From Albugo candida (lineage: Eukaryota; Oomycota; Peronosporomycetes; Albuginales; Albuginaceae), in contig CAJNAR010000150.1 of assembly GCA_905220665.1 (NCBI GenBank), positions 62,001 through 126,000 on the forward strand: a DNA stretch of 64,000 bases. Direction: 5' to 3'. Shown in pieces: positions 58,153 through 63,643 of this stretch (positions are counted from its first letter, which is position 1; each line of letters opens with the position of its first letter). The position numbers were made by a program, and so were the translations under genes. Below the pieces are notes generated by a model. That model did not search any database. It saw only the letters and a list, made by a program, of their open reading frames with translations, and was not told where the DNA came from.

Positions 58153-59787
58153 TTACGATTGCGTTCGATCAACAATTCCTTTCACAAGCACTGGAATCGT
58201 TTCAAATAGATTCTTGAGCACGACATCGGGAAGATTGGCGATTTCTGTCTCTGCGTCCATTGGATTTTTATCGAGGATTACGCGAGTGGACCAGAGAAGA
58301 AGACATCCAGCGCTTGATGCATCTTTATAATCTTTTACCAGTACGCTACAAAAGCGTTATCAGGTCAATATCGACATACTTTGGGTTACGTACGTGGTGT
58401 TCTGGTTACGTCGAACGTGATTGATCGGTTTGTTTTGACTGGCATCATGCAAAATACTTCGTGAGATGAAAACACTTTTATCGGGATAGATGCGTTTGTG
58501 CTGCACACTGAGACGCTCCTCTTTGATTGCTCGATGACTAGAAGAGGAGTCGTTGATGATGAGGTTGACCACGCGACGGATATATTTCGTATCGGCATCG
58601 AGTTGTTCCAAAACTTGAACACTTTTCGTAAACGGATATTTACCTTCAAATTCCATATTTCCAAAATTAGCCCAAATGTGATCCATTATTTTCTTTGAGT
58701 CGAAATTGATAAAACGATGTCGAAAGAAAATATCCATTTCATCTTTTGATGTTTCGTATTGTACTTCGAGTCCGAAATACGCCATTGTCGGATTCTTTGG
58801 AGATCGAAACGATGCATTGCATTGCTGAATTTGCGCGTCAACTTCTTCGATCCCTTTTTCAACGTGTTGTAATAATGTGCTCCGAATAGGATAAAGTTGA
58901 GATTGTGTGGAGGAAGGTGACCGTATAGCTGCTGGTAGCGATCTTGGCGATGTACTTGTGGAAGACGGCGCATTCAAAATCATGTCTAGAGACGGGATCT
59001 ACAATACAGACAACATTTCAAGTTTTACAGGATGAATGACTCAAATTGCTGTGCTTACATTCAAAAGTGGCTGCTTGGTAAAATATTCTTGAAGTCGCTG
59101 AATAAATTTCATCTGTTCTGTTAAAGTGCGACGCAAAAAATCGTTTTCTTGGTCGACTCGAGCCCGAACGTTGGCATGCTGCTCGGCTTCTTTCTTCCAT
59201 GCAAGCTCAGTGTTGTATTCAGAAGGCTCGGATGACTGCAAAACCTCAATCTGTTCTTTTAAATCCTTCACTTTGGCACGCAGAGCGATCAATTCGTTCT
59301 ATCAAAGAGAAAACCTGTGAATATATATAGCCTTCGGGATATTATAGTCGAAGACACACACTTTTTGACGTTGTCGATGTTTTCGTGCAGCTTTTGCGAT
59401 TTGCGCTCTTCGCTTTGCTTTGGGATCCTCAAATTCATCCAATCGATGATCGTCCATGTATAACTGCCCTTTATGTCTCTTGTTAAATCGATCTGATATC
59501 ATACTGGTAGTGGGAGACGAGCTATCCGAAAAATGAGCGTGGGAAGAAAGCTGGTGTGGCACATTGCTGATAGGCGTCAATATAGAGCGATCCAGTGAGG
59601 ACGATAATGACATTACTCGTGAGTTGCCGTTGTTTGAGAGTGCTGAGATTACATTCAGATTATCCGAATTCGACAAAGGTGTGAGGGAGTCCACTGTTTG
59701 TGCTGACAGGTCAGCCGGCCGCGTGTTGCTTAAAGTAGAATTCGTTTCCGAATTCGCTTGGCGTAGTGAGTCATGAAAAGCATCCAT
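58153..59787 (-). CDS. bZIP transcription factor with a START-like C-terminal region, 487 aa
   Basis: Four exons: 59787-59362, 59298-59059, 58998-58394 and 58345-58153; introns of 63, 60 and 48 nt, in phase. Residues 1-120 are Ser/Asn-rich. The basic region DPKAKRRAQIAKAARKHRQR joins across intron 1 to the zipper NELIALRAKVKDLKEQIEVL. The C-terminal half has MAYFGLEVQYETSKDEMDIF, RRVVNLIIND and the final LVKDYKDASSAGCLLLWSTR, resembling the START-like region seen in oomycete bZIP and related regulators. At the position of the invariant DNA-contacting Asn of classical bZIPs I read Ile, with His in the usual Cys/Ser place, so its DNA specificity may differ. It shares an upstream region with RPT2. 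Confidence 0.8.
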
Positions 59788-60236
59788 TTTTGGTTGGCGT
59801 CGGGCGGGTTACTTGTCGTTAGTAAGGATCGCGAGGAACTGAGTGGATTCTGTGAGAGGTACAAGCTGTATAGCTGTATATACCAGATTGTTGCTCATGA
59901 ACGATTACGTAAAAAAATCCGTTTCTACTCAGCGCTTTTGCCATGGATTAGCCAATCATAATATCTGTTCAGAATATGCGAGCGTGGTTAGGGTAGTGAC
60001 GGGCTGGCTTCCACATTTTGTGATTACGTTGAAGAAACGTATATCAATTTGTATAGTGAAATTTTGGATTCTCGCGTTAGTTGTCTTGATCAGATACAAT
60101 AAATTAATTATATATTACATCATCGATTACGTAATACGAGTTACTATCCATTCGCAAATCTGAGTCTGAATTGCATTGGTTAATAATCAACACGTCTATA
60201 TCTGTAATTTGCACAAGCCCACCACACGAATAAAAA
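59788..60236. promoter_or_regulatory. Divergent upstream region of the bZIP gene and RPT2
   Basis: 449 bp without a gene between two divergently transcribed genes. I could not identify a proteasome-type control element by eye. Confidence 0.35.
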
Positions 60237-61677
60237 ATGGGCCAAAGCCAAAGCGGTTTGCCTCGCGAAGGCGCGAGGAAGAAGAAACAGGATGACGCGG
60301 AGAAGAAAAAGAAGAAATTTGAGCCTCGTAGCGGGGTCATGACGCATAAAAGACGCAAGAAGAAGGGACCCTCCGCAGCAGTGCGAATTCCAACAGTGTA
60401 TCCGACCGCAAAATGTAAACTTCGACTTCTCAAATTGGAGCGAATCAAAGATTTTTTGTTAATGGAGCAAGAATTTATTCAAAATCAAGAAGTTATGAAA
60501 CCAAAACACGAAAAAGACGAAGAAGAACGCTCCAAAGTCGACGATCTTCGCGGGAATCCAATGGGCGTCGGTACTTTGGAAGAGATCATCGATGACAACC
60601 ATGCGATCGTTTCATCATCGGTTGGTCCGGAATACTACGTCAGCGTCATGTCTTTTGTGAATCAAGATATGCTTGAAACAGGCTGCTCTGTTTTATTGCA
60701 TAATAAAGTCATGTCTGTTGTTGGAATATTGTCGGATGATACAGATCCGATGGTAAGTGTCATGAAGGTGGATAAAGCGCCCCTGGAGTCATATGCGGAT
60801 ATTGGAGGCCTTGACGCGCAAATTCAAGAGATTAAAGAAGCTGTGGAACTACCGCTGACACACCCGGAATTGTACGAAGGCATTGGTATAAAACCACCGA
60901 AAGGTGTCATTTTGTACGGGGAACCCGGAACAGGAAAAACCCTTCTGGCTAAAGCAGTGGCCAACCAGACGTCTGCGACATTCTTACGAGTTGTTGGATC
61001 TGAATTGATTCAGAAATATCTTGGTGATGGTCCGAAATTGGTTCGTGAAATGTTCCGTGTCGCCGAAGATCTCGCGCCATCTATTGTTTTTATTGATGAA
61101 ATTGATGCTGTCGGATCCAAACGATACGATTCGAATAGCGGTGGTACACGTGAGATTCAACGCACGATGCTCGAGCTTCTTAATCAATTGGATGGATTCG
61201 ATGAGCGCGGCGATGTCAAGGTATGAAAACCTTCATTAATCAATACACTGTTGATAATGCATGAAACACGCAGGTGATTATGGCGACAAATGCGATCCAA
61301 AGTTTGGATCCGGCGCTTATTCGACCTGGTCGCATCGATCGAAAGGTTGGTTGTGTCTGTCTAATCATCTACGTTCTCTTGGTTTTATGACTGTCAAAAT
61401 GTAGATTGAGTTCCCTCTGCCTGATACAAAAACAAAGCGTCGTATCTTCCAAATTCACACTGGCCGTATGAGTCTATCAGACGACGTGGATCTCGAAGAA
61501 TTCATCATGTCGAAAGATGAGCTTTCTGGAGCCGATATTAAGGCTATTTGCACGGAAGCAGGACTTTTGGCGCTACGTGAACGTCGAATGCGTGTCACAC
61601 ACGTGGACTTCGCCAAAGCCAAGGAAAAGGCTCTCTATCGAAAGAAAGCGAATATTCCAGAAGGTCTTTACCTTTAA
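60237..61677 (+). CDS. RPT2: 26S proteasome regulatory subunit 4 (RPT2/PSMC1), 442 aa
   Basis: Three exons, 60237-61220, 61274-61345 and 61405-61677; introns of 53 and 59 nt. The N-terminus MGQSQSG is the known myristoylation site of RPT2, followed by a Lys-rich stretch and a coiled coil. The AAA domain has Walker A GEPGTGKT (residues 228-235), a [13 protein letters not shown]alker B, and [14 protein letters not shown] running over the first intron into MATNA and RPGRIDRK (arginine fingers). It ends in LYL, the HbYX tail that opens the 20S gate. Walker A carries Glu at its second position where Pro or Ala is more usual. All catalytic residues are kept. Confidence 0.97.
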
Positions 61678-61868: not shown

Positions 61869-63643
61869 TTAGCGTTTGACGTGATAAGATACTGGACGTG
61901 AAGGTCTCCTGCTATGTTTGATCCAAACCCTCCTACCGTTGTGGTCACTACGCGCTGCATGAGACAGACTCTTGTTCGTCTCACAGACATCTTCCTCTTC
62001 GTCACTCATTTCTTGAGCGATCGCATGCCGACGGGATGTCCTTGTTTGCTGTACCACACAATTCAAGTCGTCCACAAAATCTCTACTTCGTTTTCGGTTT
62101 CTAAATTGCATATCATTTTGATCCGCAGTTGCTTCTATCTCATTAGTATCTGTAGATGTTTGTTGTGGCATAGCCTTCGCTAAGCTGCTATACAAATCAG
62201 CTATGTCATAATAGCTTTTGTATGGGCTTCGTTCGTGTAAACGAGCCAGTAGTGCTTGCGCAGCCAATTGCTTGGAGATACGTTTGGTTGAGCCCACTCC
62301 CTTCACAGCAACAATGAGCATTTGCATACGGTTCAATGCGCACAACGGGTACCTCGCCCGCTTTTTTTCCACAGGATGCGACTGTTTTGAAGCTATTGCA
62401 TCCATTCTTTTCCGTCATCAGCGTATTGTAAACCACCGAGATGCCTCGATTCCGATTCTGATATTCTTGCAGTACTTGTGCGGGCGTTCGTATCGATAAT
62501 GCGAGGCAAGCCTCGAGTCAACTGTCAATGTGTATGAAATCGAGACGAGTTATCTTACGTACAGAAAGAACACGATCGTCCGACATTGACAATTGCTTGA
62601 AGTCTTCGAGACTCTACGAGAGCGCATGAGAACATGAACCTACGTGCTTTTTCAATGACTCAAACCATCGACTTGGAATCCATTCCATATGACATCATTT
62701 GATCGGTATAATCGACGCTTTTCTCGCATGCATTGGTGTCCTTCTTCACCAAAAGCTTTTGGAAATCGGGAATTCTATCCAACCGTTAGCAATGTATTGT
62801 AGGATGAGAGCATGAACGAGAGTGATGTACAATTTCTTGAGCGCAGACTCCACCGCCGCTTCTCTTGCCAGAACCTTGGATGGTCGGCTTTCCATCGAGT
62901 ACCGTTTCTCGTGCACGTAAATCGCACACGTGACTGGATTTATTAGATCTATAGTACACATTGAGAATCACTTCCTGAAATCGATTCAACTGATTGACCT
63001 CACCATCATTCTTGGAAAACTCGTAGCGAGGGGTGCATCGTAACGCCGCTACTATATAATCCTACAGAAAAGGATGTAAACAAAGTATACAAGTTACAAA
63101 ATGAGCAGCCAACCCGAAGCAGCGCTTTTGCTGATTTTCCTTCTGGATTCTCAATTCGAACGCCATTTACAAGAATTGTGTTGAAGACATCAATAGTCTC
63201 ATGAAGTTTTCCAATTCCCACGATGCGCTTGATGCTCTAAAGTGAGGTAAATAACATAGTTATACGGATGGCAATGCTGCTATTGTGCTGATAAGTACTG
63301 ATTCGCTGGTAGGAAGAAGAGTGTGGTCGAAATGCGAATGTTTATGAGTCTCATAAACTTCATTTTCATTGCAAGAGCGAAATATATTTAGAGGAGGCAA
63401 ATGTGAGCGAGCAAATGCGTCGAAATCGGCCTCTGAATTGCAGCTTCCAATGCGATACGGTCGAGACCAACAGACGACTTTGGTCTTTTCATGAACAAAA
63501 AATCGAATTCCGGAATCATGAAGCATCTCCACCCATCCTTCAGGTAGCACAGAGTCATATTCGCTGCATGCTGATATATCTGTTGATAGTTTATGTCCCT
63601 CAGAAGCGCTCAAAGCCACCGTCGTATCATTCATGTTAATCAT
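61869..63643 (-). CDS. DGCR8/Pasha-like protein: WW domain plus two dsRNA-binding domains, 462 aa
   Basis: Eight exons: 63643-63299, 63236-63114, 63061-63004, 62948-62818, 62755-62666, 62613-62563, 62511-62353 and 62300-61869; introns of 51-62 nt, all phases consistent. Residues 33-63 are a WW domain (LPEGWVEMLHDSG ... VVCWSRPY). NPEGKSAKALLRDYI opens dsRBD1 (about 144-219; Y-x-F-S, then SRPSKVLAREAAVESALKKL). SLEDFKQLSMSDDRVLS and RTPAQVLQEYQNRNRGISVV lead into dsRBD2 (about 250-345; GVGSTKRISKQLAAQALLAR), followed by YYDIADLY and a basic tail. This order and these linkers match DGCR8, the RNA-binding partner of Drosha. The heme-site Pro-Cys of DGCR8 is not exact (PPLNIFRSC). Family assignment is from remembered DGCR8 features; RNA function is inference. 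Confidence 0.8.

Follow-up and report, generated by a model that had tools for sequence, protein, structure and literature searches.

A DGCR8/Pasha-like protein in the oomycete Albugo candida and a Drosha-type gene in the same genome

The genome of the oomycete Albugo candida contains a predicted gene (63643..61869, minus strand) whose eight exons, separated by seven GT-AG introns, form a continuous open frame, and the encoded protein of 464 amino acids is predicted to carry a WW domain, two double-stranded RNA-binding domains (dsRBD1 and dsRBD2) and a following helix. We regard the relationship of this protein to DGCR8/Pasha, which takes part in the recognition of microRNA hairpins in animals, as practically certain. 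Positions are those of the window, the whole 64,000-nucleotide stretch of DNA that was analysed, which corresponds to C148:62001-126000 in the searched genome of 38.9 Mb and 196 contigs. We propose that this oomycete gene belongs to the DGCR8/Pasha lineage, with a WW domain and a double dsRBD, and that its product would act as a hairpin-RNA-binding subunit together with the Drosha-like protein DCL2, probably without cutting RNA in Albugo. To this explanation as a whole we assign a probability of about 0.72.

The sequence-only reading that preceded this analysis had described a gene with WW, dsRBD1 and dsRBD2 in eight exons, and the same gene was recovered at the same place, on the minus strand. 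Exon 1 (63299..63643; all exons lie on the minus strand) encodes residues 1-115 and carries the WW domain at 63458..63547, which reads LPEGW...WSRPY as in the DGCR8 type and is called by Pfam at E 4.5e-6 and 27.0 bits, barely exceeding the cut-off of 26.9. Exon 2 (63114..63236) encodes residues 116-156 and provides the entry to dsRBD1, which starts in exon 3 (63004..63061), continues in exon 4 (62831..62948) and ends with IPDF in exon 5 (62666..62774), where the linker begins. The linker preceding dsRBD2, LEDFKQLSMSDDRVL, is located in exon 6 (62563..62613). The initial part of dsRBD2 follows in exon 7 (62353..62511), while exon 8 (61869..62300) holds its end, the helix after dsRBD2 (about 62181-62228), the C-terminal tail and the stop; the structural model of the Albugo laibachii protein predicts this helix followed by a disordered tail. 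Three features singled out by the sequence-only reading find their counterparts here: the NPxGKS entry to dsRBD1 is the NPEGKS of exon 2, the DSR/DDR segment ahead of dsRBD2 is the linker of exon 6, which aligns with the human ELEYFNHISIEDSRV segment, and the helix after dsRBD2 is a segment of exon 8 within the region matching DGCR8.

Two acceptors are possible for exon 4. The acceptor TATAG, ending at 62949, includes the residues DLINP and yields the 464-aa protein, and the alternative one, with the exon starting at 62933, yields a protein of 459 aa. We prefer the 464-aa form because the additional residues are found as DLMNP in A. laibachii and as DLQNP in Pythium oligandrum. Its introns measure 51-62 nt (intron 3, 63003-62949, has 55 nt); the 459-aa form has introns of up to 70 nt. 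The sequence-only reading gave a length of 462 aa. Six of the seven splice junctions are consistent with the A. laibachii protein, itself a prediction; the first disagrees because the annotation there uses another frame for the WW exon, and that frame is interrupted by stops in the A. candida genome. The public annotation of A. laibachii CCA21638.1 seems to run in the wrong frame over the WW exon, hiding the WW domain. A second copy of the gene's DNA was not matched elsewhere in the genome in a search that diverged copies would escape. A plus-strand gene (60237-61677) that looks to us like proteasome regulatory subunit 4 (Rpt2/PRS4) lies about 190 bases from the DGCR8-like gene in tail-to-tail orientation, and a minus-strand open frame at 59302-59808 contains a bZIP-like basic stretch, KRRAQIAKAARKHRQRQK, and perhaps encodes an oomycete-type bZIP factor.

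The kinship with DGCR8 is seen in sequence and profile searches as well as in the predicted fold. The 459-aa form finds human DGCR8 first (E 1.4e-23), in two stretches covering the WW domain and the dsRBD1-dsRBD2-helix region, respectively. A profile of four oomycete proteins (the window protein, two from Peronospora and one from Aphanomyces) matches human DGCR8 at E 2.1e-42 in a single colinear stretch (profile positions 34-380 against chain positions 84-509), followed by Staufen (1.8e-9), a NEDD4-like WW match (4.2e-6), PACT (3.5e-5) and TRBP (0.0019). The E-value of DGCR8 in this search is over 30 orders of magnitude lower than those of Staufen, PACT, TRBP and Loquacious, and no HYL1 chain occurs among its 51 rows. 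Such a profile comparison had been suggested as a check on the sequence-only reading, and its outcome, DGCR8 at 2.1e-42 against TRBP at 0.0019, agrees with the DGCR8/Pasha-like protein proposed there. Using Foldseek, the seven best matches of both AlphaFold2 models are all DGCR8 chains; the whole-chain TM-scores over these seven rows are low (0.13-0.43) owing to uncertain domain placement, and the predicted fold leans towards DGCR8 because flatworm DGCR8 is present in the AlphaFold alignments. The top five rows obtained with VIA-align for one of the models are likewise DGCR8, and the absence of a WW chain among its best 50 rows is uninformative, as the model used misreads the frame of the WW exon. 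Taken together, these comparisons support DGCR8 as the nearest solved family of the predicted protein, well before Staufen, TRBP, PACT and Loquacious.

Each of the domains was also assessed individually. A search with the WW domain alone gives 4e5r as the best match (E 3.7e-8; listed as MGC78846 protein, which we take to be frog DGCR8), then human DGCR8 3le4 (1.5e-7) and NEDD4-like chains (1.3e-6). PCIF1, considered as a possible source of the WW domain, appears unlikely, since WW chains of the DGCR8 type match best and the full length fits DGCR8. The tandem dsRBDs with the DGCR8 linker and the following helix are present in the window protein: dsRBD2 is called by Pfam dsrm at E 2.8e-10, whereas dsRBD1 with its NPEGKS entry receives no dsrm call and reaches only E 0.034 with DSRM_2. 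A scan of the genome with PF00035 found two places and missed the DGCR8-like gene, in which an intron interrupts dsRBD2; the scan is therefore no census of dsRBD genes.

A likeness produced by chance, or by introns chosen by eye, was rejected on the basis of unspliced reading frames and independently annotated proteins. Against all 1,665 six-frame open reading frames of at least 25 aa in the whole window (limit E 10), the WW piece of human DGCR8 has a single match (E 1e-10) inside the DGCR8-like gene, and the human dsRBD piece likewise has one (E 0.003), the last-exon dsRBD2 of the same gene. Among solved structures, the annotated proteins of A. laibachii and Aphanomyces stellatus both find human DGCR8 first (E 5.1e-15 and 9.6e-20, respectively). 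Contamination with animal DNA was rejected as well, as the gene is situated within a contig of 858 kb and its nearest relative is from A. laibachii.

The window protein shares with DGCR8/Pasha the order of its parts, namely the WW domain, dsRBD1 with the NPxGKS entry, an LExF linker with DxRV, dsRBD2 and the following helix, as well as the KRxxKQLAxQ motif in dsRBD2 and a WW domain of the DGCR8 type (LPxGW...VVxWSRPY). Over trimmed pieces it is 32% identical to human DGCR8 and 28% to the Schistosoma protein. Staufen, TRBP, PACT and Loquacious have the dsRBD fold and double-strand RNA binding in common with it, but score much lower in the profile search, with the best stretch limited to dsRBD2. 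Compared to animal DGCR8, the N-terminus, which in DGCR8/Pasha carries a segment that binds ERH, is short (32 aa ahead of the WW domain), and so is the stretch between WW and dsRBD1. In animal DGCR8, a Pro-Cys following the WW domain is the site of the haem ligand. While IPCL is present in all nine animal-type proteins examined (P0011 left out), the Pro-Cys is missing in each of the five oomycete proteins whose WW region is readable; the window protein has a Cys near this site, without the Pro. The C-terminal tail helix with which DGCR8 binds RNase IIIb of Drosha is not recognisable in Albugo, and in the A. laibachii model this part of the chain has pLDDT values below 50. In the Aphanomyces protein (P0006), a C-terminal helix is predicted with middling confidence at residues 582-603, which might be a counterpart of the Drosha-binding tail.

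A search of other oomycetes, likewise proposed at the outset, returned relatives from at least six further species in five genera (A. laibachii, Bremia, two Peronospora, Pythium and Aphanomyces). The homologue searches were directed at 5.8 billion proteins, and the two alignment-based ones scored the roughly 8,000 candidates with most shared words. All five matches of the window protein are from oomycetes. The oomycete profile has at least eight matches, five oomycete and three flatworm, and the mixed oomycete-animal alignment at least 16, amongst them five oomycete proteins, eight flatworm proteins and one from Clytia, together with a fragment encoded in the window (P0017) and an unnamed piece with a DGCR8-like WW domain (P0018). 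Three of the nine flatworm and Clytia proteins are named DGCR8, the others being unnamed, hypothetical or designated 'DRBM domain'. Vertebrate DGCR8 is absent among the matches listed despite the human letters in the mixed query alignment; given this and the roughly 8,000 candidates scored, little meaning attaches to other lineages missing from the lists. The A. laibachii protein is 81% identical to the window protein (288 of 354 columns), and both dsRBDs contain long stretches of identity. Pfam WW scores the Bremia relative under the cut-off (E 0.17) and makes no call in Peronospora effusa, Aphanomyces, Pythium and one flatworm DGCR8. As annotated, half of the six oomycete relatives, those from Bremia and the two Peronospora species (P0003, P0004, P0005), lack dsRBD1, which may reflect a real loss or a gene-model error with skipped exons. 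The proteins of Bremia, the two Peronospora species and Aphanomyces each combine WW-like and dsRBD2 parts in one annotated protein.

The same genome also encodes a candidate partner. RNase III domains were matched four times, in three genes (on C1, C13 and C168). The gene at C1:94582-94908, an RNase III gene of the Drosha type, has open frames and a clean intron; it was modelled over 747 aa joined across that one intron, with its upstream exons outside the model. Residues 237-736 align with human DROSHA (E 7.2e-14), colinear over the connector, both RNase III domains and the C-terminal dsRBD. No Dicer chain is found for it up to E 10, the matches after DROSHA being RNase III chains with a single domain and an unrelated chain (E 2.3). 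By these alignments, the double RNase III region of C1 groups as kin of Drosha rather than of Dicer. As a control, a 684-aa part of the C13 gene, which has two RNase III domains in one long frame, finds Dicers first (E 6.5e-26) and DROSHA at only 4.8e-6. The third gene (C168:274715-275038) contains a single RNase III domain and is not called Drosha because its scores for DROSHA (1.7e-21) and Dicer-2 (2.5e-19) are too close; it retains the first acid motif and has G instead of D in the second. The earlier expectation of a Drosha-Pasha-like pair in an oomycete is borne out to the extent that a DGCR8-like and a Drosha-type gene share this genome. Further matches in the genome comprise a Piwi domain in three places, ERH in one, one Exportin-5 gene and one place for RdRP.

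In RNase IIIa of C1, the residues E and D of the first motif of human DROSHA are replaced by A and N, respectively, and the E of the second motif by K. RNase IIIb has the acids of the second motif replaced and D changed to E in the first, where two alignments disagree on the other acid. The printed human DROSHA chains have Q at the E position of the second motif, for which we assume E to be the natural residue. Both RNase III domains consequently look to have lost their metal-binding acids in these alignments, and the open frames and clean intron suggest an intact pseudo-enzyme. According to one study, DCL2 of A. laibachii varies in both motifs of RNase IIIa and in the second motif of IIIb (PMC4791657). 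We infer that C1 is DCL2, in which case the catalytic change would be common to two Albugo species. The sequence-only reading had mentioned reports that oomycete DCL2 proteins fall near Drosha, and the literature is divided on this: DCL2 is described as most similar to Drosha (PMC10080066) and grouped with Drosha (PMC12857978), whereas it is held to be more Dicer-like owing to its PAZ domain in PMC4791657. DCL2 of P. sojae is reported to be located in the nucleus.

In the mechanism we envisage, the two dsRBDs would bind the stems of hairpin RNAs, and the WW region, judging from its kinship, would serve dimerisation. The partner would be the Drosha-like RNase III called DCL2 in oomycete papers, and the presumed site of action would be hairpin transcripts in the nucleus. 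We lean moderately towards such a pairing of the window protein with the Drosha-type protein. As the metal-binding acids of the partner seem to be lost, the pair in Albugo would bind, shield, sort or route hairpins without cutting, or hand them to another RNase III, whereas cutting would be expected in those oomycetes whose DCL2 is intact; we put the chances of a non-cutting role in Albugo at about even. The term Microprocessor component, as used in the sequence-only reading, derives from kinship: the relationship to DGCR8 and the presence of a Drosha-type gene support it, whereas the haem motif is absent, a tail is not recognised in Albugo and C1 seems to have lost its catalytic acids.

Another reading makes the protein a general cofactor with dsRBDs that serves the Dicer-like DCL1, comparable to HYL1/DRB or TRBP, its likeness to DGCR8 being silent on a Drosha partner. 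In favour of it, the genome has a Dicer-like gene whose product contains two RNase III domains, the dsRBD fold is common to DGCR8 and the cofactors of Dicer, and a tail for binding Drosha is not apparent in Albugo. We nevertheless consider this improbable in view of the wide lead of DGCR8 over Staufen, PACT, TRBP and Loquacious, the alignment of WW domain and linker with DGCR8 within one stretch and the Drosha-type gene in the genome. Even less credible, to the point of being nearly dismissible, is a division in which the WW exon would belong to one gene and the dsRBD exons to another. It could appeal to A. laibachii, where the annotation uses another frame for the WW exon, and to the annotated Pythium protein without a WW domain, but that frame has stops in A. 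candida, and WW-like and dsRBD2 parts reside in one annotated protein in four other oomycetes.

Alternatives that accept the DGCR8 kinship carry more weight, although each remains doubtful. The Albugo protein and a Drosha-like partner with seemingly broken catalysis may be relics that are in the process of being lost, or may have been reused, for instance for RNA binding in splicing or transcription. The changed acids in both RNase III domains of C1, the similar changes reported for A. laibachii DCL2 (PMC4791657) and the tail helix not seen in Albugo would fit this, whereas the 81% identity of the DGCR8-like protein between the two Albugo species and the long open frames and clean introns of both genes argue against it. 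Similarly tentative is a transfer in which an oomycete ancestor acquired the DGCR8 gene, and perhaps that of Drosha, from an animal relative. Among the matches listed, the only named non-oomycete relatives are indeed animals, but the relatives span Albugo to Aphanomyces, so that any transfer would predate these oomycetes, and it would have involved two genes that lie on different contigs. The broader view that the Drosha-DGCR8 pair is an old eukaryotic hairpin-recognition complex retained by oomycetes rather than an innovation of animals, with a non-cutting, RNA-binding form in Albugo, is in our opinion a possibility of about the same modest standing. Our preferred reading remains that of a DGCR8-lineage subunit acting with a Drosha-like DCL2.

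DGCR8 seems to be restricted to animals according to PMC10605862, and Drosha and Pasha are reported in ichthyosporeans in PMC8061703. We found no description of an oomycete DGCR8 in the open literature, in a search that excluded bioRxiv and covered few subscription papers, and the words Pasha and DGCR8 do not occur in the available text of four oomycete silencing papers (PMC4791657, PMC12857978, PMC10080066 and PMC3804510). Oomycetes are far from animals on the tree, and the animal-type hairpin machinery may thus be older and more varied. A DGCR8 homolog together with a Drosha-type gene in a stramenopile genome would indicate either a much earlier origin of the Microprocessor or an old gene transfer, and the question of origin becomes testable by protein and small-RNA experiments. 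Work on oomycete small RNAs gains a candidate partner for the DCL2 protein, on whose role opinions have differed. With its apparently inactive Drosha, Albugo would provide a natural test of the non-cutting roles of the complex.
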